Shown: positions 1 to 18,883 of the stretch, in pieces
Layout: each line of letters starts with the position of its first letter
How positions within the stretch are numbered: the stretch's first letter is position 1
Source of the DNA: a virus
Strand: one strand, 5' to 3'
IMG/VR virus record: IMGVR_UViG_3300031227_000236
Location: 1 to 32,938 of that record
Length of the DNA: 32,938 nucleotides
Position numbers and translations under genes: made by a program
Notes under the pieces: model-generated
Databases searched by the model: none
The model's input: the letters and a program-made list of their open reading frames with translations, nothing else
Told to the model about the DNA's origin: nothing

Positions 1-2088
1 TTCGCCTGATGCACCTTCCCCAATCGCACTCATATATGCACGAACTCCATTAGCATTGGCGGAACTGTCATTTCCATAAAACTGAACCGAGCCATAACTG
101 TGCGTAGTTACACCTGAAACAGTGTTCTCTAATCTCAAAGATGGACCGTACTGGTCACCCGAGGAATAAAGGCCTGCAAGATGTAATTGTGTTTGCGGAC
201 TCGTCGTCCCGATGCCGACGTTGCCTGAAATTATCATCCCATTTGACGGTGCTGCAGTACCTGAATACGTTCCAGCAGAGATACCCCCATTTACACTAAG
301 TTTTGAGCCAGGCGTAGTCGTCCCGATGCCGACGTTGCCGCTCTTATCAATAACCATAGCGGTATTAGTAATACCTGTAGTGTAGTTATTGGATGTACCG
401 AAATACAACGATGAGCCTGTAGCTCCTGTTATTGCACCAATACGAGCTTTTGGCACAGTGCCCTGTGAAGCTGTACTTAGAAAATCAATGCCTGAAAAGT
501 CAGTTACTCCTATTGAACCACCAACCGCAATTCCCATTCTAGTTGAACCAGTGAATGTTGCGCTTGAAGGCCCCGTGACTTCAAGTTTACTCCCTGGATT
601 CGTCGTCCCGATGCCGACGTTGCCGGTGCTATCTAAGACCATCCTATCGTGGATTCCTGCACTACCAAAAGTAAGCTTATCACTTGAGTGTATATACTTA
701 ACCATGCCACGAACAGTGGCATCACCTCCTGTACCATCTGCAAAGAAGATACTGCCATACCCTGCACTGCTATTACTCGCGATAGTTAAACCATTATAAC
801 TACTTGCAGTATCCCCAATAACTAAATTGTCTGCAAAACCATTGTATGCACCTGGCGTCGCCGTCCCCACCCCCACATTTCCACTCGCATCCACAATAAA
901 CGGCGAGCTATCTGGAGACGCGCTATCCTCCACTATGAAGCTGGGGCCGGTACCAGTGTTGGTGACGGCCAGCTTGGCACCAGGACTCGCCGTCCCGATA
1001 CCGACGTTGCCTGTGCTACCCACAAACACACCTTCGTCACCACCATCTCCTGAGAGGTAGTTACCATTAAGAGCAATGTTACCTGTCATTGTGCCTCCTG
1101 CTTTAGGTAATGCGTTGTCTGCTGTAGTTCCTTGTGCTGACGTTGCATAATCCGATGTATCAAAGGCTTTTACTTGGGCAAGGTTATCAACTTCTGAGTC
1201 CATCAATGCACCAGCGCTTGTTACGTTAGTAGCATCTGTAACGTCTGCCCCATCTTCTACATTTATTAAAGTACGCACCTCACTGGCTGTAAGTTGCTCT
1301 GAGTCACCTGTGCCTGCTGTGTTACGTCCTAAGATTCGGTCTGTGGCTACGTTTGATACTACGTCTACAGAACCACCAGGAATAGTCTCCCACGCAGCGT
1401 CTGTGCCGTCTGTACCGAGAAACTTACCGCTGTTACCTGTTTGGTCGGGGAGAGATGAGCCACTTTCTTGAAACACTAGACCTTTCCCATCATCTGATAC
1501 AGCTAATACTAACCCTTCATAGCCCACATACGCCCCTTGACGGCTTTTTGACTTAGCAGGGGTATCAAACAGTTCAAATAGGTAGCTAGCTCCACCACCG
1601 CCTCCGCCTAGCTTTGGGATTTTACTTTTAACAAACGCTTCGAGTCCTTTTAGGTCTGTCGGTACATCTGACTCTTTTGGCGCTTTGGTTAATAGATCTT
1701 CAATCTTTGAGATACGTTGTGTAAACTGTGTTCTCGTTTCGTCAACCATTGGTCTAAGTAGCGCTTTGATTTCATCAGCACTGGGAGTACGTCCGTCTTC
1801 TGGCACTCGTATACCATCTACCTTGGCTTGCACCACTGACTGCATATACTTTAAAACAGCGTCAATACGCTGATTAATAGACACGATAGCGTCTTGGGTT
1901 TTTTTATCTATGTCTTTAGTCGTCTTATCTGAGTGCTCTTTAAACGTCTTGGTCAAATGGTTTTCTACATCCTCACCTTTAAGCAGCCGTTTAGCCATAC
2001 CAGTTTTAGACGTTTTAGTGAACCTGGCAGCCAGCTGGCTTTCAAGCTCTTTTCTCAACTTCGGAGATATTTTGCGAGGTCTTATCAT
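1..2088 (-). CDS. Tail fibre protein, C-terminus beyond the left edge
   Basis: The minus-strand frame stays open for 696 codons from ATG 2088 to base 1. An in-frame TAG lies just upstream, which fixes the start. The first ~180 residues are charged and helical (coiled coil), then comes a glycine run and a fibre body. The body carries repeated modules of the form SGNVGIGTTTPGSKL, typical of trimeric phage tail fibres. A segment at about 1245-1375 (VDVVSNVATDRILGRNTAGT) closely resembles part of the fibre at 31942-32865, so the two fibres share a module. A chaperone or receptor-binding tip would lie beyond the edge. There is no Shine-Dalgarno site. The proposed promoter at 2095-2138 would start transcription at the ATG. 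The class is clear; the receptor is unknown. Confidence 0.85.
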   Translation of the reverse strand, partial: MIRPRKISPKLRKELESQLAARFTKTSKTGMAKRLLKGEDVENHLTKTFKEHSDKTTKDIDKKTQDAIVSINQRIDAVLKYMQSVVQAKVDGIRVPEDGRTPSADEIKALLRPMVDETRTQFTQRISKIEDLLTKAPKESDVPTDLKGLEAFVKSKIPKLGGGGGGASYLFELFDTPAKSKSRQGAYVGYEGLVLAVSDDGKGLVFQESGSSLPDQTGNSGKFLGTDGTDAAWETIPGGSVDVVSNVATDRILGRNTAGTGDSEQLTASEVRTLINVEDGADVTDATNVTSAGALMDSEVDNLAQVKAFDTSDYATSAQGTTADNALPKAGGTMTGNIALNGNYLSGDGGDEGVFVGSTGNVGIGTASPGAKLAVTNTGTGPSFIVEDSASPDSSPFIVDASGNVGVGTATPGAYNGFADNLVIGDTASSYNGLTIASNSSAGYGSIFFADGTGGDATVRGMVKYIHSSDKLTFGSAGIHDRMVLDSTGNVGIGTTNPGSKLEVTGPSSATFTGSTRMGIAVGGSIGVTDFSGIDFLSTASQGTVPKARIGAITGATGSSLYFGTSNNYTTGITNTAMVIDKSGNVGIGTTTPGSKLSVNGGISAGTYSGTAAPSNGMIISGNVGIGTTSPQTQLHLAGLYSSGDQYGPSLRLENTVSGVTTHSYGSVQFYGNDSSANANGVRAYMSAIGEGASGE
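201..1011 (-). repeat. Five degenerate copies of a GNVGIGT-coding repeat in the tail fibre
   Basis: Plus-strand copies of CGTCCCGATGCCGACGTTGC or close variants lie at about 201-225, 317-339, 601-624, 856-882 and 986-1011. Each encodes the fibre motif GNVG(I/V)GT(A/T)(T/S)PG. Copies 1-3 are nearly identical at DNA level and copies 4-5 have diverged. Such near-identical units allow recombination that changes fibre length. Confidence 0.8.
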
Positions 2089-2094
2089 GGTAAT

Positions 2095-2138
2095 AGTGTA
2101 CTAGATTAGTGGTGTTTTAGTGGTGTTTCTGCCGACAA
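2095..2138 (-). promoter_or_regulatory. Putative phage late promoter, copy 1 (tail fibre)
   Basis: On the minus strand TTGTCGGCA (2138-2130) is followed after exactly 29 bp by TACACT (2100-2095). Initiation about 7 bp further falls on the fibre ATG at 2088, giving a leaderless mRNA. The same box and spacing occur at 8111-8154, 14033-14076 and 16489-16532. No -35 hexamer is visible, so an activator bound to the box near -46 is inferred. Confidence 0.55.
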
Positions 2139-2150
2139 TCCCCAGGGGAT
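2138..2150. promoter_or_regulatory. 13-bp palindrome between divergent promoters
   Basis: ATCCCCAGGGGAT is a perfect palindrome around one central base. It abuts the leftward late-promoter box (2130-2138) and the rightward TTGACA (2154-2159). It could be an operator or a small hairpin. Confidence 0.4.
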
Positions 2151-2153
2151 ATG

Positions 2154-2182
2154 TTGACATTGTTACGGGTTGAGTGTTTAGT
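2154..2182 (+). promoter_or_regulatory. Sigma70-like promoter for the plus-strand membrane genes
   Basis: A consensus TTGACA (2154-2159), a 17-bp spacer and TTTAGT (2177-2182, 4 of 6 to TATAAT) precede the ATG at 2191 by 8 bases. The predicted transcript is almost leaderless. It is divergent from the tail-fibre promoter. Confidence 0.5.
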
Positions 2183-2190
2183 TAAGATAT

Positions 2191-2337
2191 ATGAAAACAT
2201 TTATCTTAGTTGTGGTAGCGGTACTCATCAGTTCAAGCCTTACCTACATGGTAGTAAAGCCTGATTATTCTGAGCGATACTACTTGGAGGTTATCAAGGC
2301 ATGTGAGGGGACTTTGAGTATTTATCAAGGTAAGTAG
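2191..2337 (+). CDS. Small membrane-anchored protein (48 aa)
   Basis: This is a 48-residue frame on the opposite strand to nearly all other genes. Residues 1-24 form a hydrophobic N-terminal segment (MKTFILVVVAVLISSSLTYM), a signal anchor or signal peptide. A short polar tail with one cysteine follows. It lies between the fibre gene and the convergent 1320-aa virion gene and has its own promoter at 2154-2182. This is the arrangement of a 'moron', an independently expressed accessory gene. Function unknown; a host-surface role such as superinfection exclusion is only a guess. Confidence 0.5.
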   Translation: MKTFILVVVAVLISSSLTYMVVKPDYSERYYLEVIKACEGTLSIYQGK

Positions 2338-2343
2338 CTTTCT

Positions 2344-2523
2344 ATGATTGGAAACTCAGTTGTTGTAGCCATCTCCGTAATCATATTCCCCACTCCTTTG
2401 GTATTTCTATACTTTAACTTTTCTGGTGAAACAGTAAGTTTTTCCCAAGCGTGGCTCCTAACAATACTGATGTTTGTTATCCCATATATTATATTTAACT
2501 TTTTGTTATCTGAAGAAAACTAA
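2344..2523 (+). CDS. Small two-helix membrane protein (59 aa)
   Basis: It begins 6 bp after the previous plus-strand gene and probably shares its transcript. Two hydrophobic segments at about residues 4-23 and 32-54 are joined by the short polar linker FSGETVSFSQ, giving a hairpin membrane topology. It ends 3 bp before the convergent stop of the 1320-aa gene. Size and topology also fit a holin-like protein, but the lysis genes are elsewhere, so a membrane accessory role is equally possible. I recognise no family. Confidence 0.5.
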   Translation: MIGNSVVVAISVIIFPTPLVFLYFNFSGETVSFSQAWLLTILMFVIPYIIFNFLLSEEN

Positions 2524-2526
2524 CTT

Positions 2527-5500
2527 TTAATTATCACCGAGTCCGAAGTCCATATCTCCAAAGCCGAAGTCTACTTCTCCTGAACCACTATCATCAGATA
2601 AATCTCCAAAGCCGAAATCTACGCTACCACCACTAGATGAAGATGTGGGAGCTGAACTACCAGCAGTACCAAATTGCTTGAAGGCAGCTGGCGTGAACTG
2701 TCTTTGTAGACCTGCTGCCCCTTTATTATCACCTTTGTCACCCCAGCGAGAGTCTTGCTGATACTCCTCTAGTGTCACTAGACTCTTTAGATTGTCGCCT
2801 AGCTGCTGGAGGAAACTGTATAGTCTTGGAGTAGATAAGAATAACGTTGGGTCAGTACCTCCCATCAGTGTCATTGACTCCATGTAAGCACGAGCTTTCA
2901 ACTTACCAATGAATGTTTCATCATCTTCTTCTGAGAGTACATAAGAGCCCATCAAGAACAACAAGATAGACATCTCAATTGCTCTGTATGTCTCTGCCGC
3001 TTCTTGTGAAGTAAGAGCTTTGAAATCACCATCCTTTAATCTTTTAGCAATACTAGAAACGTTGGCTATATTCGTTCGAGCAATTGGGATAGCCCAGCCT
3101 TTGTATTTAGTGGACATAACACCGACTGAAGTGGAACCGACTATAGACTTCACGTCACTACCCAAGTCACGCCACCGACCAGCTTCGATTCTTAAATTAG
3201 CTAGTCTTTGGGAGGATAATTTACCAGAAGCTAACTCCTCTTTTGAAATCTTACCCAGTAAGAATAGTTTGTTTGCTTCCACTGTAGACTGAGCAAATCC
3301 CCCGAACACAGTTTTTAACCCTCGGTCCATAATACCTTGACTCGGCTCAGCTAACTCAGTCCAGATGTTACGTCCAATGAAAGGCTCTGCTTCCTTGAGG
3401 ATACTATTGGCATTTTTATCAGACATTCTTTTAATACCAGTGTCCCACAGTCTTCGTTTCCAGGCTTTTGTATAACCTATCTTGCCTAACGCTTGGTATG
3501 TCATCACCTGATCACCGACTGAAGCAGCGACTGATGGTCCAAGTGACAGACCTAGGTCAATTAAAGATACCAGGGTGTTCCCCATACGGATAGCAATATC
3601 AGCTGGGCCAGATTGTTTTATGATGCCACCAAAGTTTTCTCTCCGACCTTTCTTGTTGTTCAAGTATTTATTTACGAATGTCTTTATACTTCTATCTATC
3701 TCAAGACCTTTATCAGTTAGTTTTGTTGGGGTGAGTGATTGAGTATAAATATCAATCTCAGGAATGATTTTATCGAACATTCGCTTTCTCTCGAACGTCT
3801 GCGCGTATTGCAGAAATACCCTGGTTACGTTCTTACTAGGCTCTAAGTTTCCCGTTCTTTGGAGAGAGTATTGGAAAAATTTAGACTTCGGTAAAATGTT
3901 ACCCGTATCTTGGTCTATGATATTAGCTATCATCTGGTCTTCTTTATGTGAACCCCACCACTCTCTGGTCGCTTTAATAACCCCATCATCACTCCAGGCT
4001 TCAAGAAAGTCTCTGCGAGTGTGGGTAAAATACTGGTCAACAAACCGACTCCCATATAGTTCTTTTATCTTGACGAGGTGTTCGTACGCTCCAGTATAAT
4101 ACTGCTCAATGTAGCTGGCGTAGTCTAGTTCTTCTTTTGTCAATTGAGATGCAAAGGCCGGCTTATCTACTACCGGAGCTTCCAGGTATTTAACAATCTC
4201 ATCATTCTTAGGGATAAGAGCTTGTCTCACTGTCCCAGTCAATCCTCGACTACGTGATTTGTTCGCTGCTTTCGCTAGTTCGTTGACCTTTTTCTGTACT
4301 TGTAAAAAGTTAGCTTCACCGTTCAACATCTCTGTTTGTGTTTTGTTTACGATAAAGTTATAAAAAGGATTCTTCTCAGCGAGAGCTGTGTCATAGCGTA
4401 AGTTATCAAAAGCAGATACTTTTATATTACTCACGTCTTCAAGTGTTAACTTTTCGTTACCTGGTGTTTTTTGAATTTCTTTGAGTAGTCGCTCTCTCGC
4501 TTCTCGCATAGTCTTCACTCCCTCTAAGTTAGTCCTGTCTACTGTCTCTAACTGCCGTGCCGTTAAGAATACGTCACCCTCTTGAAATTGCTCTAAGGCT
4601 GTAACGTAGTCACGCATTTGGTCACCAGTCATCTGGCTAATCGGAGGAAACCCCTGAGTCCTGCGGTAGTTATCTTCTTTCTGGAGACTGAGACGATTAC
4701 GAATATCCATCAACTCAGCCTTGGCTTGCCGAGTGTCTGCTTTCTCTACTGCCGCTTGCTCTAGTTCTTTTATAAAGTCACTGAACTTACCGTCACTCAT
4801 TGTTCGGTAGTCGCCCCCTTTGGCAGCTTTCTTAATATCCCCTTCGTTGAGCATGAACTGGTTGCGTAAATACTTTACGTAAGAACGACGCTCTCCAGTT
4901 GCGAGTCTGGTAATTTCTTTTACTTTGTTTGCCAAAGCCCGTTCTGATTTAGCCGCTTTCAATTCACCTTTCAGCTCAGTAATTTCTTCTCTTGAACTAT
5001 CAAAAGCCCTGATAGAATCATCAGCTTCTTCCATATTTCTAAAACCTGCCTCAGTTACCACCGAATCTAAGTTAGCCCGCTTAACCTCTCTAGCTGCGGT
5101 GACCGTTTTATTGTTGTAGGCTTTTTGATTACTCAGTACCGAGTTTGCCTCAGTCAAAGACATGTCTTTAGCTATCGGATTCGCTTCTACTTTCTTCATG
5201 GCTGTAGCTTGCACTTGACTCAAAGTGTCACCATTGGCTAGTTGTTTGCCACCTATCTGTTTTAGTAATTGTACATCAGGTAAACTGTCCTCAATAATAG
5301 AAAGTTTTGTTTCAAGATTGACAATTTCATCTACCGTAGCTGCTGTACTCCTCAAAGATTGGCGGATAGTATCCACTTCCTCATTGATTTTTATAACTCT
5401 GTTTGTGCTAGACTTAGGTAATGATTCGGATTGATTGTTTACTATACGTGAGCGTTGCATTTCTTCTGGCACTCGTCCTGCATAGCCTCCTTTGCGCATA

Positions 5501-6489
5501 GCTGGGTTGCGTAGGTTGTCTTTAGCTGTTTGTATGATGCCCTTTTTTTTGGGTGGGTTGGCTTGCTTCCTTTGTATATCACTTACACCATCACGGTTGA
5601 CTGGTAGCTTGCCGTCTACTGACTCAATAATCCCTCTAGCCTCTGCCATCTCCTCTAGTGATAAGTTTGTACGTTTTGCTTTTGTTTTGAGTATATCAAA
5701 CCGAACTGCTGTATCAGCATCTTCAAAGTCAATGGCCGACTTCTGCATTAAGTTTTCTAATACAATATCGTCAGCTGCATCTTTATTACGGGTACTAACG
5801 GGTGTGTAGGCTGGTTTCTTTTGAGTGGCGTTAAGGAGGATACCTTCAGCATCGGCCTTGTTACCCGCTCCAATAATAGACTGTATAAGTGAGTCACTTT
5901 TCTTAACTCCAAGTTCACTTAAAACTTCAGTTGCCTCTTTAGCTGTACGAGCTTCCACTGCTCTAGTTATCAGTCTCTCTGGTAATTTAGCTATCGAGCC
6001 TACTCCAGCTGTGGGGTCTAACTGCATATTTAGTTCTGTCCCAACAAAACCTGCTTGTAGCTGTAGCTCAGTCGCTCTAGCCTGAATCTCAGCCATAGTT
6101 CTTGTTGGGTCTTCCTCAACAGCTTCTTTCATTGAGTCTTCAATAGTTGGAAAAATGAACTTAGCCACTCTTGCAACAGGGTCAAAGATATGTTCTTCAA
6201 AGCCTTCTGATTTAGGAATCGCTTGAATGAGTTTACGTAAAGGACTTCGTTTATCCTTTGCTTGGCTGATAGAATCGCTACTCATATCACGACTACGTAA
6301 CACGTCCAGTGATTTTTCTCTAGGAGTTTTATTCTCTTCCTTTAACCTATTATTAAAAGTAGCTCTCTGAACTATCTGAGTAGCTGGAAACATCTCGCTA
6401 TAAGGAATAGACTCAGTACGGTTTCGCACTTGAGTATATGAAGATTCGTTCTGAGCTACTCCTCTTTTTTTTACTGGTGTGTATGCCAT
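2527..6489 (-). CDS. Very large internal virion / DNA-ejection-type protein (1320 aa)
   Basis: This is the longest gene. Its start has one of the best ribosome sites in the window (AGGAGG, 9 bases before ATG 6489). It is mostly alpha-helical and highly charged, with long coiled-coil stretches at about residues 300-800. An amphipathic or hydrophobic segment lies near 990-1030 and a clear hydrophobic helix (SILLFLMGSYVL) near 1190. The last ~50 residues are low-complexity and end in repeats of (V/M)DFG(F/L)GD. Length, coiled coils and position after the tail genes fit internal core or ejection proteins of podoviruses. I see no catalytic motif. The role is inferred from context. Confidence 0.6.
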   Translation of the reverse strand: MAYTPVKKRGVAQNESSYTQVRNRTESIPYSEMFPATQIVQRATFNNRLKEENKTPREKSLDVLRSRDMSSDSISQAKDKRSPLRKLIQAIPKSEGFEEHIFDPVARVAKFIFPTIEDSMKEAVEEDPTRTMAEIQARATELQLQAGFVGTELNMQLDPTAGVGSIAKLPERLITRAVEARTAKEATEVLSELGVKKSDSLIQSIIGAGNKADAEGILLNATQKKPAYTPVSTRNKDAADDIVLENLMQKSAIDFEDADTAVRFDILKTKAKRTNLSLEEMAEARGIIESVDGKLPVNRDGVSDIQRKQANPPKKKGIIQTAKDNLRNPAMRKGGYAGRVPEEMQRSRIVNNQSESLPKSSTNRVIKINEEVDTIRQSLRSTAATVDEIVNLETKLSIIEDSLPDVQLLKQIGGKQLANGDTLSQVQATAMKKVEANPIAKDMSLTEANSVLSNQKAYNNKTVTAAREVKRANLDSVVTEAGFRNMEEADDSIRAFDSSREEITELKGELKAAKSERALANKVKEITRLATGERRSYVKYLRNQFMLNEGDIKKAAKGGDYRTMSDGKFSDFIKELEQAAVEKADTRQAKAELMDIRNRLSLQKEDNYRRTQGFPPISQMTGDQMRDYVTALEQFQEGDVFLTARQLETVDRTNLEGVKTMREARERLLKEIQKTPGNEKLTLEDVSNIKVSAFDNLRYDTALAEKNPFYNFIVNKTQTEMLNGEANFLQVQKKVNELAKAANKSRSRGLTGTVRQALIPKNDEIVKYLEAPVVDKPAFASQLTKEELDYASYIEQYYTGAYEHLVKIKELYGSRFVDQYFTHTRRDFLEAWSDDGVIKATREWWGSHKEDQMIANIIDQDTGNILPKSKFFQYSLQRTGNLEPSKNVTRVFLQYAQTFERKRMFDKIIPEIDIYTQSLTPTKLTDKGLEIDRSIKTFVNKYLNNKKGRRENFGGIIKQSGPADIAIRMGNTLVSLIDLGLSLGPSVAASVGDQVMTYQALGKIGYTKAWKRRLWDTGIKRMSDKNANSILKEAEPFIGRNIWTELAEPSQGIMDRGLKTVFGGFAQSTVEANKLFLLGKISKEELASGKLSSQRLANLRIEAGRWRDLGSDVKSIVGSTSVGVMSTKYKGWAIPIARTNIANVSSIAKRLKDGDFKALTSQEAAETYRAIEMSILLFLMGSYVLSEEDDETFIGKLKARAYMESMTLMGGTDPTLFLSTPRLYSFLQQLGDNLKSLVTLEEYQQDSRWGDKGDNKGAAGLQRQFTPAAFKQFGTAGSSAPTSSSSGGSVDFGFGDLSDDSGSGEVDFGFGDMDFGLGDN

Positions 6490-6490
6490 A

Positions 6491-8101
6491 TTAACGACCT
6501 CCTGGGATTATAGACTGCCAAAATGTCCGTCCATAAACATCCACTAGTGCATCTTGAATAGCGTTCTCGAAAGTAGCTGGTAGATTTTTTGTACCTAAAG
6601 CTGACTCTAGGTTTGTTCTCGCTAAATCTTCAGCCTCACCTCTAGTGTATACATCTTTTATTCCTGACAAGGTGGTAGTAATCTTAGTCTTGATTTCGTC
6701 TATCGTAGCTGGCTCAGACTTTACCTCTCGCCCGAATATCTCTGATACTGCTGTCCGTTGTTGCTCATTATCAATCCCTTCAAGGACCGTATCTAAACCG
6801 AAATCAGCTACATCTTGTTGAATCTGAGCAATATCCTCTCCCGCAAAACCTATCCCGACTAGAGTACGTTCTTGCGCTGGTGTAATATCTACCTTAGCTC
6901 CACTTCCACCGTAAAGGAAATCTAATTGCTCTTGTCTTGGTGCCCCTGCTAAGCCAGCCTGTTCTAACTTTCGTGTCTCTTGTGAAGTGAATCCTCCACC
7001 GCCACTACCTGACCCTGCTTTAACTGGCTCGGCTGGCGGTACAAACGCTAGAGTCTTACCTCCCACATCCAGACTAACTACATCTTCTCTGTCACCTGGG
7101 AATGGTACATACTGATATCCCTCCATTTTGAGCTCGTTCATAACGTCCTGTCGTTCTTGTACTTTGGTCTGCTCGGACATCTTAACGTTAATCTCCTCGA
7201 CACTGTCATTAAGAGTAATACCAGCGTCCGCCATAAATTGCGCTGACTCTGGGTCAATCATCAAGTTGTTAATAGTCTCAGCTGTAGCTTCTAGCTGACT
7301 TAATTTGCGTTCAGCTAAAGTGATTTGTGTACTAGCGTAATCGTCATTGATTTTATTCTTGGCTAACTGGCCTGACCTTACCAAATCCATGTACGTCTTA
7401 TTGTAGTTGAGTTGGTCAGTCCATTGAGCAGCTACAGCTGTTCTGGTGTTGTTAATTATAGAGTGGGCAGCGTTAAAGTTACCGTCGAGTCCTGAGATAA
7501 CCGCATTAAGGACACCAGCGCGCGCTTGTACGTTCTGCATAGCTTTGGCTACACCCGCATTACGATAACGAGAAATAGGAGCTCCACGAGCTTGTTCAAT
7601 CAACTGATTACCTTGGGTAAGTACCGTTTCTAACTCGTTTACCACTGAGCGTCTTTTATTAAAATCTTCTTCCAGTGTAGCTGAGGCGGTTTCGGCAGCG
7701 TCCATTTGGTTTTGTACTATCCGTTGCTCTTGCTGAAATGTCGCGCGGTTTTCTGGATTACTGTCTTGTACTAGTTTTTCTTGCTTTTTATTTAGGTCAT
7801 CTTGTCGTTTTAAGGCAGCGTCACGCTCGGTCTTGAGTGTTGCATCAAGATTGGTTCTAGCGGCTGCTGTAGAGGCTTGTAGACCACCTTGAAACGACTC
7901 GGCTACGTTCTGTGCAGTTGGTTCTGGCATGTTTGGTGTACCACCAGAGCGTAGAGTCGCCGCATCAATCGCCCCCTCGTTATTTGTGAGTGGTGTAACA
8001 GTTGGAGTATTTCTCTCTGCTGCCTGACGCTTATTTAAAATAGCCTGAATATCCAAGACTTGACTTTTGATTGACGCTAGTTGTTCTTCACGAGTTGCCA
8101 T
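6491..8101 (-). CDS. Coiled-coil virion protein, probable internal protein (536 aa)
   Basis: The N-terminal half is rich in Gln, Ala, Glu and Asn with strong coiled-coil character (MATREEQLASIKSQVLDIQ onward, to about residue 330). A glycine/serine linker (GSGSGGGGF, about 365-375) and a helical C-terminal half with repeated EEDIAQ/TIDEIKT-type segments follow. It sits one base before the 1320-aa gene in the same operon, and the two probably work together in the virion. No Shine-Dalgarno site precedes ATG 8101; the putative late promoter at 8111-8154 would give a nearly leaderless message. Virion role by context only. Confidence 0.55.
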   Translation of the reverse strand: MATREEQLASIKSQVLDIQAILNKRQAAERNTPTVTPLTNNEGAIDAATLRSGGTPNMPEPTAQNVAESFQGGLQASTAAARTNLDATLKTERDAALKRQDDLNKKQEKLVQDSNPENRATFQQEQRIVQNQMDAAETASATLEEDFNKRRSVVNELETVLTQGNQLIEQARGAPISRYRNAGVAKAMQNVQARAGVLNAVISGLDGNFNAAHSIINNTRTAVAAQWTDQLNYNKTYMDLVRSGQLAKNKINDDYASTQITLAERKLSQLEATAETINNLMIDPESAQFMADAGITLNDSVEEINVKMSEQTKVQERQDVMNELKMEGYQYVPFPGDREDVVSLDVGGKTLAFVPPAEPVKAGSGSGGGGFTSQETRKLEQAGLAGAPRQEQLDFLYGGSGAKVDITPAQERTLVGIGFAGEDIAQIQQDVADFGLDTVLEGIDNEQQRTAVSEIFGREVKSEPATIDEIKTKITTTLSGIKDVYTRGEAEDLARTNLESALGTKNLPATFENAIQDALVDVYGRTFWQSIIPGGR

Positions 8102-8110
8102 TATAAGATA

Positions 8111-8154
8111 ATTCTACTAAATAATAAAGAAATAAAGGGGTATACTGCCGACAC
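8111..8154 (-). promoter_or_regulatory. Putative phage late promoter, copy 2
   Basis: The box GTGTCGGCA (8154-8146) directly follows the TAG of the gene at 8154-8861 and shares a base with it. Exactly 29 bp on is TAGAAT (8116-8111), 5 of 6 to a consensus -10. Predicted initiation is about 3 bases before ATG 8101. There is no -35 element. Confidence 0.55.
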
Positions 8155-8861
8155 TAGGTGATATTTAAGACATTACCGTTTTTCCAAATAACTCCCGTGC
8201 CACCCGGGTTACTGGTTGGTAAATTAAACATCTGGATACCATCTACATCTACTAGGATATAAGGAACGCTACCAGTCGGGCTATCTTCTTTATTTGCTAT
8301 GTGAGCAATGGCTATGCCTCCGTTAGCTCCCTGACTAGCAAGCTGAATGACTACCCCCTCCAGTCCGACATCATTTACCGTACCAGGGTCATAGAGGTTA
8401 ATACCACTACGGTCACTCGCCGGGTTTTCACCATCTCTAGTGACACGCAGTTTAATATAGCCATTGTTGCGCCCTTCTTTACTACCAATCTTGGTGTTAT
8501 GAGTAGCTGCAAAGTCAATTAGGTTGGTAAAACGAGACTTACCGTCACCCTGCCTCCCGAAAATAAGACTTTGAATACCATCGTCAGACATCTTGGTGTA
8601 AAACAGTTCAAACGCGTTCTTTACGTTTACCAAGCCAGTCGCTAGTTTTTCCGCTGGGTTTATGTTGCGCCCGGGTCGGTTTACCATTTTAAAACCATTA
8701 CTAAAAGCCAACTCTTTAAGTCCACGCACAAAGTTACCAAGGGTATCAAACCCAGCTCCTTTACGTCGCACGTCACGGGTAGATTCTGGATCTACTACTT
8801 CATAAAACCGCTCACCCTCGGTAAACTGCTCTACTTCATTTTCTAGTTTATCTTTAGCCAT
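8154..8861 (-). CDS. Virion appendage / tail fibre-like protein (235 aa)
   Basis: The N-terminal ~110 residues are charged and helical. The C-terminal half is beta-rich with many Gly, Asn and Asp residues. It ends in a fibre-like motif (GGTGVIWKNGNVLNI) of the kind found at the ends of phage fibre and appendage proteins. It starts 2 bp before the end of the propeller tail-protein gene with a weak GGAA upstream. Likely a tail-attached or head decoration protein; no catalytic residues are seen. Confidence 0.5.
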   Translation of the reverse strand: MAKDKLENEVEQFTEGERFYEVVDPESTRDVRRKGAGFDTLGNFVRGLKELAFSNGFKMVNRPGRNINPAEKLATGLVNVKNAFELFYTKMSDDGIQSLIFGRQGDGKSRFTNLIDFAATHNTKIGSKEGRNNGYIKLRVTRDGENPASDRSGINLYDPGTVNDVGLEGVVIQLASQGANGGIAIAHIANKEDSPTGSVPYILVDVDGIQMFNLPTSNPGGTGVIWKNGNVLNIT

Positions 8862-8862
8862 A

Positions 8863-11223
8863 TTATTTATTTCCTACACTAGCTATGGCAAATAACACAT
8901 CTTCTATCTCCGGCGTGTCGTTTGCGTTTACAGTTAAGCCAATTCGTAGCTGAGGATTGATTGTATCAGGGGTACTTGGTGACTTGAGTTTTACTACTTT
9001 CCGCACCGTACTGTCCAGCACATCCATGTTGGTGTAGGCAGTATCATAGTCTTTATTGATTCCAATAGTAATACCAGTGCTTGCAGGGAGCTTGTGATAC
9101 GGCACGATTACGTCTGACACGGTCTTAGCTTGGTGACGGTTCATGGCTTGTGTTAAGGTCAGTGTCTCGAAGTACGCCGAAGCGTATTTATTACTCCAGT
9201 CAATTTTAGCAATTCCTGTATCAGTCCCGTCTTTCCACGCTACGTACAGGTCGTTACCTTCTGTAAGGATTACACCAATTTCTACCCCTGAAAATTGACC
9301 ACTTGGCATCGGGAAGTCTAGTGACAATGACTTGGCGTAGTTTGAGTTGTATGAGCCGTAGCCGTAGATACCTTGGAGTACTGGATTTCCTAATAAGTTG
9401 GAAATACCTACTAGCGGCGTACCTCTAAAGTACCCAATCGCGTTACCGTTTATTTTTATTGTGTCTTGATTTTCTATTTCCGGAATAGTGACAAAGTCTT
9501 CACATTTAGCTCCGTTGTAGTAGTAGACAGACCCTCGATTACCTGCCACTGGATACACAAAGTTATCATCAAGAATAAATGCAAGTATCCCGCCTTTTTC
9601 ATAAATAATATCCTCGGCACTGGTTGTCTCTGATATTCCATCCCACCGCAACACTCGACCATTACTAATGTTATTAGTTCCGACTAAAACATCAAGGTCA
9701 AATGGAGCTAGTGCTGTAACCACTTCATCATTTTGTACGTTAAAGTTTGTCTGTGCAGTAAACGACCCTCTAAAGTCTACTTGCGCTACAACTTTGCCAT
9801 CTCCAATGTATAAAGATGAGTTTTGTTTCACCATTGGATGGTGTGTGCTGTTGCCGTTAACAAACGTGCCAACAGGTACGATGTTTTCTTCTATATCAGC
9901 AATGTTACTAGTCCTAACTCTAAAAAAGTAATCTTTTGTGGCGAAGTATACATGATCTTCTGGTTCGGCTGTGGCTGGACTAAATACGTTCTTAAACACA
10001 TCTGTTCCCAGCCCAACGTGTTCTTCTGCACCTAATACGATACCAGTCTGGGCTTCTGTACTCATTTCTAGCTCGTAGAGCACGTATGGACCGACACTTG
10101 AAGTACTAATAGAGCCGTTTAGGTTTACAGTAACCGAAGTAGTGGAAATAAACATTTTATTCCCTCCAGGGTATATTCCATAAGGTGCAACGGTTTGCAG
10201 ATAAATAGACTGGACATTATCGTCAAAAACAGAACTGAGGTATTGCCAACTTTTACTATAGCTTATTGTGGACAGGTCGTATGCTGTAGATAAATCGTAT
10301 TGGTAAAACCTATTTCTATTACCAACAACTGGATACCCATATGCAATAATTTTAGTTCCGTCAGGGGAAAAAGAAATTGGTTGGTTTCCACGAAAAATGT
10401 TTATTTCTGTACCAAATGAAAATGATACTGAGTCATATGTTGCGGTTGAAATATCAAATGCTGTACTTAGTGTGTACTGGTATAAAGTCGGTGTGCCGAA
10501 CCGGTCATCCCCAATATATAGTTTAGTTCCGTCAGTGTTTAACTGCATGTACCAGATAGATGTAGTTTCTGATGGTGTAAACGACTTTGAATCGTATGAT
10601 GAGCTTGAAATGTCTATGTTAGAACCAGTGGAGTACTGATATATCACTGTAGCAGATGATACATACCACTTCGTACCAGCACTATTCATGCAATATGCCC
10701 TAGAATCATCTGTCTGGGCAGAGTGGTTATATAACTCGTCGTATGCAAAGTCGCTTAAGTTATATCCACCATCTGTATCAATGTACCCGTAGATAAATTC
10801 ATCCTGTGTTCTACCTAAATGAAATTTAGTATTTCCAAAACCAGCGTTTCTTATCCCCATAAAGACAGTTGAACGCACAGAATTTGCAGTTACATCTAAA
10901 GACTGGTCGGTAAACGCCATTGTTCGAACATCCCATTCACTAATATTAAAGTTAGTCAAAAGCGTGTAAGTACCCGCAACTTCACGCCATACTTTCCCAC
11001 TTTCACTCGAAAACCATAACTTTGAGCCGTCTGATACTTTTACTGAAACTTTACATAGCTCATCTACGACTGTACCTGAATCTTTAGTAAGCTTCTGGTG
11101 CGCTTTTAAGACCCCTGGCTTGCTTCGACTGTCTATTCCAACACTTTTGGACACAGAACCCCGCTGACCGCTAAATATGCTGTCTGAGAGTCCTCTGTAT
11201 CCGCCACTGAATAGGCTTTTCAT
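8863..11223 (-). CDS. Tail protein with beta-propeller repeats (786 aa)
   Basis: Residues ~130-400 contain recurring blocks of the form YQY(D/T)LSTA(F/Y)D(I/L)ST followed by SPDGTK and a hydrophobic strand. This is the pattern of beta-propeller blades known from phage tail and adhesin proteins. The N-terminus is basic (SLFSGGYRGLSDSIFSGQ) and the rest is beta-rich. The position just after the adaptor gene and the length match the tail nozzle/tubular protein of podoviruses. The propeller could also bind a receptor. No enzyme motif. It starts one base after the previous stop, without a clear Shine-Dalgarno site. Confidence 0.55.
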   Translation of the reverse strand: MKSLFSGGYRGLSDSIFSGQRGSVSKSVGIDSRSKPGVLKAHQKLTKDSGTVVDELCKVSVKVSDGSKLWFSSESGKVWREVAGTYTLLTNFNISEWDVRTMAFTDQSLDVTANSVRSTVFMGIRNAGFGNTKFHLGRTQDEFIYGYIDTDGGYNLSDFAYDELYNHSAQTDDSRAYCMNSAGTKWYVSSATVIYQYSTGSNIDISSSSYDSKSFTPSETTSIWYMQLNTDGTKLYIGDDRFGTPTLYQYTLSTAFDISTATYDSVSFSFGTEINIFRGNQPISFSPDGTKIIAYGYPVVGNRNRFYQYDLSTAYDLSTISYSKSWQYLSSVFDDNVQSIYLQTVAPYGIYPGGNKMFISTTSVTVNLNGSISTSSVGPYVLYELEMSTEAQTGIVLGAEEHVGLGTDVFKNVFSPATAEPEDHVYFATKDYFFRVRTSNIADIEENIVPVGTFVNGNSTHHPMVKQNSSLYIGDGKVVAQVDFRGSFTAQTNFNVQNDEVVTALAPFDLDVLVGTNNISNGRVLRWDGISETTSAEDIIYEKGGILAFILDDNFVYPVAGNRGSVYYYNGAKCEDFVTIPEIENQDTIKINGNAIGYFRGTPLVGISNLLGNPVLQGIYGYGSYNSNYAKSLSLDFPMPSGQFSGVEIGVILTEGNDLYVAWKDGTDTGIAKIDWSNKYASAYFETLTLTQAMNRHQAKTVSDVIVPYHKLPASTGITIGINKDYDTAYTNMDVLDSTVRKVVKLKSPSTPDTINPQLRIGLTVNANDTPEIEDVLFAIASVGNK

Positions 11224-11224
11224 G

Positions 11225-11998
11225 TTAGTAGAGTGGGTAGTTACCTGAATAATCGTTTAGTAAGCCATTGGCTGTGTTGTTACGTGCCAAGCTAAGTGTA
11301 TGCTCGATGTCGTGTCGCTCTTGGTAGGTAACTGCTAGGGCGTTAAGAAGTCCTGACCCCTCAATTCCTCGGCGTGGTTCGACTCCAATGCGAACCACTA
11401 CCTTGCGAGCTTGTTCGTCTGGTCCGTTTATCTCTAGGTAGTCTAAAGCGGGCATTAAAGCTGCCAACTCTTCAAAGATAGGGTCAAAACCTACTACTGC
11501 ATCCTCATCTCCGGCTTCTAGCGTAAAGGCTACCGGACCCTCTTGGTATTGTACTTCTACGCCGTTGGATGCTGCGTAGTTAGAAAAGCCAACAATATAT
11601 AAATTGCCTCCTAGTAGGTAATAGTGGTCTAACATTCCACTAACCATCTCATCATCAGTAACCACGTCACGACTTTTAAACGTCAGTGTCTTCCAAGATG
11701 TGCCGTCAGACTCTTTGATTCTTATTCGTGAGATTTTGCGCCACGAGGTAGAGATAGCGATGATGTTTTCGCCAATAGTTAAATCGTTTGTAGTATCCAG
11801 TAGATTACTAGTGGAGTTTGTATCCTGTGACTTCCAACTCTTGTCATGCCGTTGTGCTACCGCAGTCAGTCGATTAACTGCCATATTTAGCGACTGAATA
11901 AAGTCTGCGTAGGTGAAGTTATTAGAATCAGCTCGCGCCCACCGCAAAGACAGGTGATACAGGCTGTTGTATTGATTTGTATCATCTTTTAATTGCAT
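11225..11998 (-). CDS. Probable head-tail adaptor / tail tubular A-like protein (257 aa)
   Basis: The helical N-terminus (NNFTYADFIQSLNMAVNRL) carrying a W-A-R motif, the beta-rich centre (residues ~70-170) and the helical C-terminal third match the layout of podovirus adaptor proteins. It lies between major capsid and the large tail protein, the usual place for adaptor genes. No signature residue proves this. A 75-bp spacer with hairpins separates it from the capsid gene. Confidence 0.5.
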   Translation of the reverse strand: MQLKDDTNQYNSLYHLSLRWARADSNNFTYADFIQSLNMAVNRLTAVAQRHDKSWKSQDTNSTSNLLDTTNDLTIGENIIAISTSWRKISRIRIKESDGTSWKTLTFKSRDVVTDDEMVSGMLDHYYLLGGNLYIVGFSNYAASNGVEVQYQEGPVAFTLEAGDEDAVVGFDPIFEELAALMPALDYLEINGPDEQARKVVVRIGVEPRRGIEGSGLLNALAVTYQERHDIEHTLSLARNNTANGLLNDYSGNYPLY

Positions 11999-12020
11999 GG
12001 TGTGTGTGTTTTATGGACAA

Positions 12021-12062
12021 GGGAGAAAAGACAGTATCTGCTCTCCCCCACCCATAAGGGTG
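12021..12062 (-). promoter_or_regulatory. Tandem hairpins between capsid and adaptor genes
   Basis: Two inverted repeats occupy the spacer: CACCC-loop-GGGTG (12049-12062) and GGGAGA-loop-TCTCCC (12021-12047). Neither is followed by a T-run on the minus strand. They are more likely to protect the capsid mRNA 3' end or cause partial readthrough than to be a full terminator. Confidence 0.45.
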
Positions 12063-12073
12063 AGATAACTTGG

Positions 12074-13276
12074 TTAGTAGTCAGATGCGTCTACAAAAGT
12101 AGTCACAGTCATGTACTTACCGTCAGTAAATGTCTTTGCATTGTGCATAGTCACTCCTGATAGTCGGGTGAAGTGAGCCTCGCCAGTCATTGGCTTTGGT
12201 CGACTCATTTCGATACCTTCATCTAGCTGTAGGGCAAGGTCAGTTGCGCCAACGGCTGTGAAGAACATCTTTGTAACTTCTGCACTCCAGATGTTACCAC
12301 CGGCAGTAAAGGTTTCAGCTGTTCCTACGTCACCGAATCCAGTGAAGAGTAGGTTTGCTGAACTTTCTGTTACTCCGATTCGTCGGTTTCGACGTAGGTA
12401 CATCCGTTGAATGATGTCTGGGTTGCTGTAATCTGTTCCCACAGTTCCAGTTCCAATGAAGTACGCAATCGTGTTAGCTCGTGAAGCTGCTACGTTTGCT
12501 CCAATAAGGATTTCGTTTTCTGCTCCAGTTAGAGTAGCTTTGTACGTTGCAGTTACTCCAGCTACAGTCACAGTATCGTTGTTAGACGGTGCTGTCCCCA
12601 TTGCAAGGGTTGCGCTCCAAGGTAGGTTATTACTCTTTACAAGCATTGAGTCCATTAGCGAACGGGCTGGATAACCTCCTAGGTACGTTTGGTCTCCTAG
12701 TACAGTTGCTCGGTTAGCTGTAGCTTTTTCGATTGCTCGGTACGCTCGTGGTCCCATAAGGATAACACGTTGGATTTCGTCAATGTCTGCTACGTCTACT
12801 AGACCTAGACCGTCTTCTACAGTGTCGAGAATAGTAGTTCCAGAGAAGTCGATTGGTGCTGCGGCTGAACCAAGAGTTTGTACACTCTCAATGTTACCTA
12901 CCCATCGCTTTTCAACTGAGTCTTTCATAGCTTGTCCAAGGTCGTCACCATAACGTGCTACGAGGTCTTGGTCTTTAAGCTGTGCTTTCTCAGTGTCGTC
13001 GATGTTGATGTGGATTGATTCAGCATCGGTTGCTCGGTCTACGGTCAACTCTTCGTTAGCTGTCTCAATGTTTTGAGATACTGATGTAGCGGTGAGCGGG
13101 GTATAAGATTGCATCTGAGCGAATCCGATGATTGGCCGGTGATACTTACGTCCACCCTGGACCTTTAGTGCGTCTCCTGGTTCACGGTTGGCAAGTGCCA
13201 TAGCCATGTTTTTGACGAAGAATTTACGCTGTGCTCTAGCATAAATTTGCTTCACCATGTTATTGTCAATAGACAT
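12074..13276 (-). CDS. Major capsid protein (HK97-type fold likely)
   Basis: The 400-residue protein follows the scaffold gene directly. The N-terminal arm (SIDNNMVKQIYARAQRKFFV) and segments such as LTVDRATDAESIHINIDD, ILMGPRAYRAIEK and the C-terminal TVTTFVDASDY are typical of capsid proteins of this class. Residues ~230-275 (DTVTVAGVTATYKATLTGA followed by ANVAASRANTIAYF) look like a small inserted beta-domain also seen in tail proteins, perhaps a surface decoration. Order TerL, portal, scaffold, capsid is canonical. No Shine-Dalgarno site is evident before ATG 13276. Confidence 0.8.
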   Translation of the reverse strand: MSIDNNMVKQIYARAQRKFFVKNMAMALANREPGDALKVQGGRKYHRPIIGFAQMQSYTPLTATSVSQNIETANEELTVDRATDAESIHINIDDTEKAQLKDQDLVARYGDDLGQAMKDSVEKRWVGNIESVQTLGSAAAPIDFSGTTILDTVEDGLGLVDVADIDEIQRVILMGPRAYRAIEKATANRATVLGDQTYLGGYPARSLMDSMLVKSNNLPWSATLAMGTAPSNNDTVTVAGVTATYKATLTGAENEILIGANVAASRANTIAYFIGTGTVGTDYSNPDIIQRMYLRRNRRIGVTESSANLLFTGFGDVGTAETFTAGGNIWSAEVTKMFFTAVGATDLALQLDEGIEMSRPKPMTGEAHFTRLSGVTMHNAKTFTDGKYMTVTTFVDASDY

Positions 13277-13308
13277 AAAATGTTTTTACGTTATGGACTT
13301 GGTTGTAC

Positions 13309-13953
13309 TTAGTTCTTAGACCATTCGTCGTAGGCTTTTTGCCCCTCTGGGGTAGCCATGTATGCAGCATCAGTAAACTGGTCTGGCATCTCTCCTGAAT
13401 TGCCTTTAGAACTTTTAGCACTTCCGCCTCCGTTTTTTGCGGCTTCTGAAATGCGGTTTCCGTCAGTTTCTTTTTCAATCAAGTACTGAATGTAAGAATC
13501 TTTGGTAGCGGCACGAACGGTAGTTTCGTTAAGTTTAGCAACTTTTCTAAGTTCTGCCTTGAGTGTGTCAGAATACTCTGACTCTTCAAGATATTCCTCA
13601 TCGAATTGCGCCTTTACGGTCTGTTCCGTTTGCTTGCGGATAGAATCAGCGTCGAATTCAGTCTTTGACTGCTCTGGCTTCTTCTGTTCAGGCTTCTTCT
13701 GTTCAGGCTTTTGGTTAAACTTTTCTAGCTCTGTTCGGTACTTAATTTTGGCACCGATAGCACTAGATAGTTTCTGGCGGCTTGATTTCTCTCGCTCTAC
13801 CAGTTTATTAACCAAGTCTTCGTTATTGTCATCGGCTTCGAGGCCTAATGAGTCGAGGACAGATGAACGAAGGTCTGCGTCCTGAACTTCTGCAAGACTC
13901 TCCTGCTCAACTTGGAGCTCCTCCGGAGATGGAGTGTTGTTTTGTTGTTCCAT
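13309..13953 (-). CDS. Capsid scaffolding protein (about 214 aa)
   Basis: Acidic, highly charged and helical, rich in Glu, Lys and Gln, with a short low-complexity repeat (EQKKPEQKKPEQ) in the middle and a glycine/serine patch near the C-terminus. Its position directly upstream of the major capsid gene is typical of scaffolds. The frame is open to 14076, but that extension would overlap the promoter and terminator at 14033-14076. The ATG at 13953 (MEQQNNTPSPEEL) is therefore the likely start. No protease motif is present. Confidence 0.7.
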   Translation of the reverse strand: MEQQNNTPSPEELQVEQESLAEVQDADLRSSVLDSLGLEADDNNEDLVNKLVEREKSSRQKLSSAIGAKIKYRTELEKFNQKPEQKKPEQKKPEQSKTEFDADSIRKQTEQTVKAQFDEEYLEESEYSDTLKAELRKVAKLNETTVRAATKDSYIQYLIEKETDGNRISEAAKNGGGSAKSSKGNSGEMPDQFTDAAYMATPEGQKAYDEWSKN

Positions 13954-14032
13954 AGGAATACTTATTTTTGTTGGGTGGACAATGTCCTTAATAACCTCGC
14001 TCGAAGATAATTTATATCTTGAACTTACATAT

Positions 14033-14076
14033 AGGATAGCAAAACCCCCCATATTACTGGGGGAAACTGCCGACAA
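14033..14076 (-). promoter_or_regulatory. Putative phage late promoter, copy 3 (scaffold-capsid unit)
   Basis: TTGTCGGCA (14076-14068) lies 29 bp upstream of TATCCT (14038-14033), the same geometry as the other three copies. Initiation near 14026 leaves a leader of about 70 nt before ATG 13953. The terminator-like hairpin at 14041-14063 sits inside the spacer. Confidence 0.5.
14041..14063 (-). terminator. Rho-independent-like terminator
   Basis: The minus strand reads CCCCC, an 8-base loop, GGGGGG and TTTT, 17 bp after the stop of the gene at 14080. The GC stem is strong but the T-run is short. It would end the portal/small-gene transcript while the scaffold promoter restarts in the same place. 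Confidence 0.6.
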
Positions 14077-14079
14077 TTA

Positions 14080-14331
14080 TTACATTCCTAGCTTTCTGAG
14101 TGATTCAGCGCGCATGTTTGCGATTGGTTGGGGGTCATACTGGAATGGTTCGAGGATTTGGTGGATAGTCTGTACAGCAAGCGCCCGTCCTTTGGCTTCT
14201 ACTGCAAAGTCTTTGTCATCTGCAATGCTAGAGCAACTATCTAACACGTCTATACATTCTGCTAGGTGCTTTTCTAGCGCTTGCCACTCAGGTCGTGATT
14301 TTAATTCTTTTGCATCTTCCGGAGTTATCAT
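14080..14331 (-). CDS. Small helical protein of the packaging/head operon (83 aa)
   Basis: Predicted to be nearly all alpha-helical, with a C-terminus rich in Arg and Leu (NMRAESLRKLGM). It starts 2 bp after the stop of its neighbour and is the last gene before the terminator at 14041-14063. I recognise no family. A small head accessory role is possible. Confidence 0.6.
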   Translation of the reverse strand: MITPEDAKELKSRPEWQALEKHLAECIDVLDSCSSIADDKDFAVEAKGRALAVQTIHQILEPFQYDPQPIANMRAESLRKLGM

Positions 14332-14333
14332 AT

Positions 14334-14573
14334 TTAGGCTTTCATTAGCTTTTCAATATCTTTGTACACACTGACCTTTGCATCTAGGAACGCACAGTCA
14401 ATAGCGTATAGGTTTTTTGCTAGGTCATCGAACAGTGATTGTATCTCTGCTTGTGTTTCGGTAGATAGCTCTGTGCTTTCCCACAGTTCAAATACTGCAA
14501 TCAGTCTGTCTACCTCTGCCTTTTTCGCGTCAAACTCTTCTGTTGTTAGGATTGTAGCGTTTATTTTTGTCAT
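14334..14573 (-). CDS. Small helical protein (79 aa)
   Basis: An acidic helical protein (TTEEFDAKKAEVDRLIAVF onward). Its ATG overlaps the TGA of the preceding 54-aa gene (ATGA), which supports this start and translational coupling. No motif recognised. Confidence 0.6.
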   Translation of the reverse strand: MTKINATILTTEEFDAKKAEVDRLIAVFELWESTELSTETQAEIQSLFDDLAKNLYAIDCAFLDAKVSVYKDIEKLMKA

Positions 14574-14734
14574 AGACTATGTTTATTTGTTACCTCCTGC
14601 ACTCGCTGTACTTCTGCTTTGTGTAACCGCCGTTGCTCTATTCGCTTAGGGTCGGTCATTTCGTTTAGGATGCGTTCAGTTGACGACCTTTCATCCATTT
14701 CTAAGTAGGCTTGGGTTTGATTGAACTGTTCCAT
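14570..14734 (-). CDS. Small charged helical protein (54 aa)
   Basis: MEQFNQTQAYLEMDERSSTE begins at ATG 14734, just after the portal stop (TAG at 14736-14738), and ends at a TGA that overlaps the next ATG. It is highly charged and probably one long helix. The tight packing on both sides supports it as a real gene. Function unknown. Confidence 0.6.
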   Translation of the reverse strand: MEQFNQTQAYLEMDERSSTERILNEMTDPKRIEQRRLHKAEVQRVQEVTNKHSL

Positions 14735-14735
14735 A

Positions 14736-16481
14736 CTATACCATTGCTGTCTGTGATGTTAGTGGAGCTGCTGGTTGAGCCGATGGCTGTGGTTGTGTAG
14801 CTTCTGGTTCCTGGGCTTGCATTACCTCTGGTGGTGTTTGGATGCCTTTTGACTTATAGATGTAGTCTAGGAAGAACGCCCGTCTGACTGGGTCAGCTTC
14901 TAGATTGATTGTCTGCATGATTGTATCAATCTCAGCGGTGTTGTATGCCTCACCTACCACTGTGACATACATTCGCGGTAGCACTTCCTTCCAGATTTCC
15001 TTACTGTTTTTAAGTACCGGGTCAGTCTGTTGCAACTCCATTACCTTTTCTTCAATCAGTTGCTCTCGCATTTCCTTCGTGTGCGGTCCGATAATGGCAA
15101 GGTTGCTGTTAAACCAGACGTTAGCGGCGAGCTTCCTAAAGTCTTCCAGCATCTGGTCTGAACCAGTGATACGGATAATGTCCTTACCTTTTAAGTCTGA
15201 CACTAAATCTTTTAGTACAAAGTCGCGGTACACGTAGCGATATGGTACTGCCAGTTTCTTACGTAAGAAGTCAAACATCTTGTTGGCGTTACTGTTCATC
15301 ATCTGGGTAGTTCCTAGTGGAGTACCTGATGCTGGAGTAATACCCTGTACTACTTCAAATGAGTTAGAGATAGTGTCCATCTCGTTTAGCACACTGTTAC
15401 GCATGTTTACCGCTTCGGTAGTTTGCGCTGTGATTTGTACCTGTCGGATGTCTGATGACTTCAACAGTGTTCCTCGCTGCAACCCGTGACGGACATTCTG
15501 GAAAGTCTGCAAGTCATTAGACGCTAGGATTGCGGACGTACTCCAAGGAATAGCGCGCATAATCTCGTTGGTAAGCTCATTGTACGCTGTCTGGTGGTCT
15601 AGTAGCAGCTCATACAACCCTTCCCGCATCCACTTGCCTTTGTATGGTCCCCGGTGAGCTTCTTTGAAATGGTCTGACATTGAGCCAGTGAGCTTTTCGC
15701 AGAACAATACGTATTCTGATTTGTCCTTACCATCAGCTGCGGTCAAACCACAAACAATAACCATCGCTAGAATGTATTTATTCGCATCGCCTTTCTTTTC
15801 TCCCTTTGCTTCGTAGTATGCCTTCTCGGTAATTTCTCCAGTGCGACGGTATAGCTCATACTGAGGAGCCGTCTTGGTTGATTTAGAGGATGTCTCAGTT
15901 GCACCGTAGGTAGTGTTCTTACACTTCTCTATCACAGATTCGACGTTCTCATAAATGTTAGACCGCTTTGATAACTCTGATTGAGTCAGCGTAAACCGTT
16001 CGATAATATCTGTCTCGTTTACGGAGCGTGCGAGTGTGTTGGTTAGAAACGTCTGCATCATGTCACACTTCTCATACGACCTATCTGTCTTACGCAGAAG
16101 AATATTGCCGTCAGCAGAAAAGTCTTCATTGCTCCCAGACAGTTCCTCGGCTCGACCAGTATCTTCCATGTACTCAGCCAGCGCAGCGTTTGTGATATAC
16201 ACCGCTGGGAAGTCTTTAGTTGGGTTCTGACTCCAGAACATAAAGAAACGTGAGTCGATTCGCAGGTTCTTGATTTCGTTATTTACTCGTGACTGTATAG
16301 CGTCAAACCAGTACTCAATTTCCCCGTTGGCGTTTACCTTGCCAGTTGGATAACGTCTAGCTTTATAGTTAGCAATACGTTTCTTGAGCTTCCACTCTGA
16401 ATACAGCTCACCGCCTGATGTCTCGACTGATTCATTGGTGTACTTGTCAATCTCCGCTTTGATTGTAGATAGTAATTGCAT
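14736..16481 (-). CDS. Portal protein
   Basis: The 581-residue protein lies directly after the large terminase and before scaffold and capsid, the usual portal position, and its size is normal for podovirus-type portals. It is mixed alpha/beta with a long helical segment (about residues 330-450, DIRQVQITAQTTEAVNMRN onward), as expected for wing and stem. It ends in a Pro/Gln-rich tail (QEPEATQPQPSAQPAAP). It would form the dodecameric ring through which DNA is packaged. Identification rests on context and size. There is no Shine-Dalgarno site; the promoter at 16489-16532 would start at the ATG. Confidence 0.72.
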   Translation of the reverse strand: MQLLSTIKAEIDKYTNESVETSGGELYSEWKLKKRIANYKARRYPTGKVNANGEIEYWFDAIQSRVNNEIKNLRIDSRFFMFWSQNPTKDFPAVYITNAALAEYMEDTGRAEELSGSNEDFSADGNILLRKTDRSYEKCDMMQTFLTNTLARSVNETDIIERFTLTQSELSKRSNIYENVESVIEKCKNTTYGATETSSKSTKTAPQYELYRRTGEITEKAYYEAKGEKKGDANKYILAMVIVCGLTAADGKDKSEYVLFCEKLTGSMSDHFKEAHRGPYKGKWMREGLYELLLDHQTAYNELTNEIMRAIPWSTSAILASNDLQTFQNVRHGLQRGTLLKSSDIRQVQITAQTTEAVNMRNSVLNEMDTISNSFEVVQGITPASGTPLGTTQMMNSNANKMFDFLRKKLAVPYRYVYRDFVLKDLVSDLKGKDIIRITGSDQMLEDFRKLAANVWFNSNLAIIGPHTKEMREQLIEEKVMELQQTDPVLKNSKEIWKEVLPRMYVTVVGEAYNTAEIDTIMQTINLEADPVRRAFFLDYIYKSKGIQTPPEVMQAQEPEATQPQPSAQPAAPLTSQTAMV

Positions 16482-16488
16482 TGTGTCT

Positions 16489-16532
16489 ATATTATCAGAT
16501 GATTAGTAAAGTATGCAGTATATTGCCGACAA
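16489..16532 (-). promoter_or_regulatory. Putative phage late promoter, copy 4 (portal)
   Basis: TTGTCGGCA (16532-16524) begins right after the TAA of the terminase gene. After 29 bp comes TAATAT (16494-16489). Predicted initiation is at about 16482, one base before ATG 16481, so the portal message would be leaderless. Confidence 0.55.
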
Positions 16533-18860: not shown

Positions 18861-18883
18861 ATACAACAACTATAACACGTTGT

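Follow-up and report, generated by a model that had tools for sequence, protein, structure and literature searches.

A lineage-specific TGTCG box ahead of putative leaderless late promoters, and a candidate small activator, in a group of uncultured phages

The DNA analysed here, a 32,938-nt stretch of virus record IMGVR_UViG_3300031227_000236 from an uncultured phage (hereafter the window), carries on its minus strand a short box that recurs ahead of apparent late genes at a fixed distance from a -10-like hexamer, which raises the question of what reads this box and how it might control the genes that follow. A sequence-only reading had proposed four such sites between genes, each with its box exactly 29 bp from a TAnnnT hexamer and without a -35 element, as promoters of leaderless late mRNAs under one activator or sigma-like factor. 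We asked how far this arrangement exceeds chance, whether related phages share it, and which protein could act on it.

Four box sites in the window

All four sites lie where the sequence-only reading had placed them (Table 1). The composite motif TGTCGGCA-N29-TAnnnT occurs four times in the 32,938 bases, always on the minus strand and never on the plus strand, against 0.01 expected from shuffles, and a separate set of 200 shuffles yielded no match. The exact box TTGTCGGCA has three copies in the window, where 0.15 would be expected, and at the level of two mismatches the box is not enriched there (79 matches versus 71 expected), so that the signal resides in the near-exact box combined with its fixed spacing. 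Although intergenic DNA makes up only ~20% of the window by a simple ORF call, all four sites are intergenic, and three of the boxes (boxes 2, 3 and 4) begin at or next to the preceding stop codon (at -1, +3 and 0 nt), as had been noticed from the letters.

Table 1. Coordinates of the box sites and associated genes in the window
Feature	Position	Strand	Remarks
Box 1	2130..2138	-	TTGTCGGCA; ~388 nt past the 1320-aa gene (last long gene)
Site 1 -10-like hexamer, TACACT	2095..2100	-	ATG at 2088, 6 nt downstream
Tail-fibre-like gene	1..2088	-	site 1 as putative promoter; PHROG tail fibre matches; runs off the record
Box 2	8146..8154	-	GTGTCGGCA; first G also ends the preceding stop codon
Site 2 -10-like hexamer, TAGAAT	8111..8116	-	ATG at 8101, 9 nt downstream
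536-aa gene	6491..8101	-	site 2 as putative promoter; kept in relatives; product probably a virion structural protein
Box 3	14068..14076	-	TTGTCGGCA; begins 3 nt past the preceding stop codon
Site 3 -10-like hexamer, TATCCT	14033..14038	-	preceded by TGC
Scaffold-like gene	13309..13953	-	~75-80 nt leader from site 3; putative function from position and conservation in relatives
Capsid-like gene	12074-13276	-	follows the scaffold-like gene
Box 4	16524..16532	-	TTGTCGGCA; adjoins the TerL stop codon
Site 4 -10-like hexamer, TAATAT	16489..16494	-	ATG at 16481, 7 nt downstream
Portal-like gene	14736..16481	-	site 4 as putative promoter; next to TerL in relatives; putative portal role from position and size
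Candidate late activator, 127 aa	18053..18436	-	GTG start; between TerS-like and TerL genes; pI 10.1
Extended -10, TGTTATAGT	18869..18877	-	8 nt upstream of the TerS-like ATG (18860)

The TerS-like gene of the window has no box, whereas its counterparts in three relatives have one; the extended -10 element ahead of it is likely the box-less promoter of the operon that contains the candidate activator gene. Two further features of the record are observations in their own right. Similar fibre-like sequence is found at both of its ends on the same strand (1-2088 and 31942-32865), so that the record may derive from a circle that was cut and lacks a piece in the fibre region, and the genes at 25087-25770 and 26247-26627 consist mostly of short in-frame repeats, of the type SIEAG/FIEAG in one and GLRGNV/GLSGDV in the other.

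Conservation of the box and the predicted leaderless starts

Several contigs from near relatives, whose TerL is 95-98% identical to that of the window, keep site 4, and site 3 is kept in those that extend that far; the contigs end before sites 1 and 2. At site 4 the spacer has changed almost wholly in these relatives (atatactgcatactttactaatcatctga versus gtctaacccctcaatttcttattatttgc) while the box, the 29-bp spacing and the TAATAT hexamer are all unchanged, which points to selection on all three. Furthermore, three more phages with portals 63-70% identical to that of the window display the same architecture with 3-5 sites each and with a spelling of their own (TGTCGGAATATTT, TGTCGCCATTT and TGTCGCCAAAA), the versions TGTCGGAA and TGTCGCCA standing beside TGTCGGCA as phage box spellings. 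In L010/G002, NTGTCGGAATATTT-N25-TAnnnT is present five times, before the genes for an endolysin-like protein, TerS, the portal, a pre-scaffold protein and a tail-end 283-aa protein; L082 carries three copies of [TG]TGTCGCCATTT, each beginning at a stop codon, before its TerS, portal and pre-scaffold genes, and in L083 [TG]TGTCGCCAAAA precedes the same three genes. Boxes ahead of late operons, anticipated for related phages by the sequence-only reading, are thus found at 15 independent sites in four phages (the window, L010/G002, L082 and L083).

Alignment of these 15 sites reveals a core that is invariant in every box, namely TGTCG and the final A, with three or four A/T-rich bases after TGTCG and a phage-specific remainder. 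The distance from box to hexamer is 29 bp in three phages and 30 bp in G002, the spacer is T-rich at -5 to -3 just before the hexamer, and the T, A and T of the hexamer are conserved at 14, 15 and 15 of the 15 sites, with TAnnnT in 14 of them; the exception, L082 site b, has AACAAT at 29 bp instead. We also ran an unbiased search, in which the box was not named, for 7-mers of any sequence that keep a constant distance to a start-proximal TAnnnT; it recovered only the box and its adjoining bases in the window, G002 and L082, and returned nothing in L087, L091, L092, L095, L098 and L101. The G002 spelling with its fixed spacing is matched in 36 of 2.9 million viral contigs, 35 of which have a single match, more than half of these inside genes; with five, G002 is the only contig with more than one. 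A further G002 box match at reverse-complement position 30069 was dropped, as it lies inside a gene, lacks TATTT and has no nearby start. We found no convincing box in eleven other portal relatives, several of which show bare extended -10 promoters, and the generic box pattern gave one match in thirteen box-less records together. We also observed that the TerL of L082 (1580-2917) is of a type that differs from those of the window, L010 and L083 and is common to L087, L091 and L101; L082 keeps the box at its TerL/portal junction despite this different type.

The 15 aligned sites combine a -10 element with the absence of a -35 element, the best TTGACA match at 16-18 bp averaging 2.07 of 6 positions, below the background of 2.50, which agrees with the lack of a visible -35 hexamer first noted in the window. 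At 12 of the 15 sites the hexamer stands 6-9 nt before the ATG, so that initiation ~7 nt downstream of it would fall at or next to the start codon; this holds for the three cases originally singled out (sites 1, 2 and 4). Moreover, Shine-Dalgarno-like motifs are not enriched before genes relative to internal ATGs, either in the window (0.11 versus 0.14) or in L101 (MW202577.1, a complete 39.6-kb phage; 0 versus 0.04). Together, the short distances and this missing enrichment make it likely that mRNAs from the box sites are mostly leaderless, in support of the earlier suggestion. The same genes in box-less relatives are often preceded by a bare TGnTATAAT, 5-10 nt from the ATG, and in L101 9 of 29 genes start 5-10 nt past an extended -10, against a background of 0.5%; judged from these data, leaderless expression seems general in the phage group. 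The box sites differ from these L101-type leaderless promoters by their upstream box and mostly weaker hexamers, and the distinguishing trait of the box phages is the use, in some late operons, of an upstream box with a weaker -10 rather than an extended -10.

The leader upstream of the scaffold-like gene presents a separate feature in three of the phages, where it can form a pseudoknot (L082:5645-5782, L010:14648-14854 and L083:8891-9051) in which CTTGC(A/G).. pairs with ..(T/C)GCAAG across a longer stem and the first stem shows an A-U to G-C change. A search of Rfam at gathering scores gave no match for it, and the 80-nt scaffold leader of the window looks unlike these three.

A candidate reader of the box

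The sequence-only reading had pointed to a phage regulator gene, and comparison of the window ORFs with 17 relatives or contig sets identifies a candidate confined to box phages: a 127-aa protein with homologs only in the near relatives, L010, L082 and L083. A reciprocal search from L082 gives the same distribution, a profile run at E up to 10 against the relatives' loci adds no homologs, and a search of viral contigs matches only these box phages; the absence of the protein from box-less relatives is itself weak evidence, as several of those records are fragments. In the window, L082 and L083 the first box is found downstream of this gene; in the linear record of L010 the gene is located upstream of TerS and downstream of the box of the endolysin-like gene. 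The portal tree places L087 together with L083 within the box clade (support 100/98), yet the 12.5-kb contig of L087, a fragment that runs from TerS to the tail genes by gene order, has neither box nor 127-aa protein, which fits a joint loss of the two.

The protein is basic in all four box phages (pI 8.9-10.1) and has no significant match in Pfam, PHROGs, PDB sequences or INPHARED. AlphaFold models (mean pLDDT 84.5 and 79.9) predict a series of helices and, at the C-terminus, a further helix with a beta-hairpin, a pair that could represent a winged helix. The models have no significant match in structure libraries; a MarR-like fold (RovA, OhrR) was considered and set aside, its matches being weak and not significant. 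As no known DNA-binding family or structure was matched, the case for DNA binding is built on charge, the helix and beta-hairpin, and co-occurrence with the box. Two other proteins were considered as regulators. A small protein encoded after the portal has the same distribution and is ranked below the 127-aa protein because it is acidic (pI 4.4-5.2) and located inside a late operon; an XRE-type HTH protein (24811-24993) has no match in the relatives searched and therefore does not track the box.

We consider it probable that the box is the site of a phage-encoded late activator, with the 127-aa protein as its most likely identity, acting together with a sigma70-type polymerase. From the comparative data we infer that this protein would read the box by binding DNA at about -50 to -42 (~-46) from the start point, where it would replace the -35 contact and bring the sigma70-type RNA polymerase of the host to the weak -10; such a layout of box and weak -10 without a -35 is that of an activator touching polymerase beside the promoter. 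Several operons (TerS or portal, pre-scaffold or scaffold, tail, fibre and lysis) would thereby be activated together at a late time, giving transcripts whose 5' ends would mostly be leaderless, and in the window the activator itself would probably be made from the earlier, box-less extended -10 promoter. The activator may further have co-evolved with the box spelling in each lineage, and a spelling that is uniform within a phage and different between phages is indeed what co-evolution with one trans-acting protein would produce.

This comparison supports the single trans-acting factor of the sequence-only reading and shifts the balance between its two options, since a -10 that stays sigma70-like, in a group where related phages use ordinary extended -10 sites, is more readily reconciled with an activator than with a sigma-like factor. 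The rigid box-to-hexamer spacing and the absent -35 would follow if a phage sigma-like or polymerase-appropriating protein used the box as an element of its core promoter. The gap of 29-30 bp, however, far exceeds the -35/-10 spacing of known sigma factors, the hexamer remains sigma70-like, box-less relatives use those ordinary sites, and we detected no sigma-like gene product in the set of proteins examined; we therefore regard this reading as improbable. Somewhat less so, and still unlikely, is a reader of the box supplied by the host, be it a regulator or an alternative sigma factor, with the phages borrowing a host promoter type: the phage regulator is a candidate by co-occurrence, and our search of genomes for a related prophage found none, while the one named phage whose portal is related has a record that gives no host. 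Against a host reader stand the spelling that is uniform within each phage and differs between phages, the relatives that have homologous capsid genes without the box, and the co-occurrence of an unclassified phage protein with it.

A box that works in RNA, for instance as a processing or termination signal after the stop codon, with leaderless mRNAs arising by cleavage, would suit the 8 of 15 boxes that start no more than 3 nt from the stop codon before them; yet further boxes lie far from any stop or reach into the coding sequence upstream, and the conserved element on the downstream side resembles a -10 with T-rich bases ahead of it, so that we hold such a signal to be very unlikely. We give least credence, and hardly any, to a loading site for a Q-type antiterminator acting after initiation. 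The lambda Q gene sits just upstream of the late genes, as does the candidate regulator gene here, but sites for lambda-type Q overlap the core promoter, and a single late promoter is served, whereas these phages have 3-5 promoters each with the box at ~-46. The activator acting at the box remains our preferred explanation.

Relation to known phage activators

The proposed pair of regulator and site would be testable, and it concerns an uncultured phage group for which we found no description of transcription control; in the open-licence papers searched the box is not described. Its four spellings and the four proteins constitute a natural set for the direct mapping of DNA specificity, the box offers a simple means of recognising late operons in phages of this kind, and the predicted starts point to a host whose genes often begin without a leader or ribosome site.

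The closest parallels are found among small phage proteins that act at promoters with a poor or missing -35. P2 Ogr and P4 Delta use a conserved upstream site to activate several late promoters whose -35 is poor, and the present system would resemble them in each of these respects. Ogr, however, is a zinc-finger protein and its sites are TGT-N12-ACA dyads near -55, whereas the box here is an asymmetric TGTCG element at ~-46; no such dyad near -55 was seen on reading the 15 aligned site sequences, and Pfam and PHROG models detect no Ogr/Delta zinc-finger domain in the candidate. In phage Mu, Mor and C likewise stand in for the -35 contact, at middle or late promoters, as we propose for the candidate; their sites are imperfect dyads adjoining position -35, and Pfam gives no Mor/C match for the 127-aa protein. 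T4 middle promoters would offer a third likeness, a short box upstream of a sigma70 -10 without a -35 and with a phage protein as reader, but the MotA box lies near -30 and requires AsiA, in contrast to the 29-30 bp that separate box and hexamer here. On balance, we lean towards an undescribed family of small phage late-gene activators that would act with a lineage-specific TGTCG box to drive leaderless late mRNAs in phages without Shine-Dalgarno use, protein and box apparently having been lost together in L087. Indeed, a site and spacing unlike those of P2, Mu and T4, with a candidate outside the families of their activators, would be consistent with a new regulator family.
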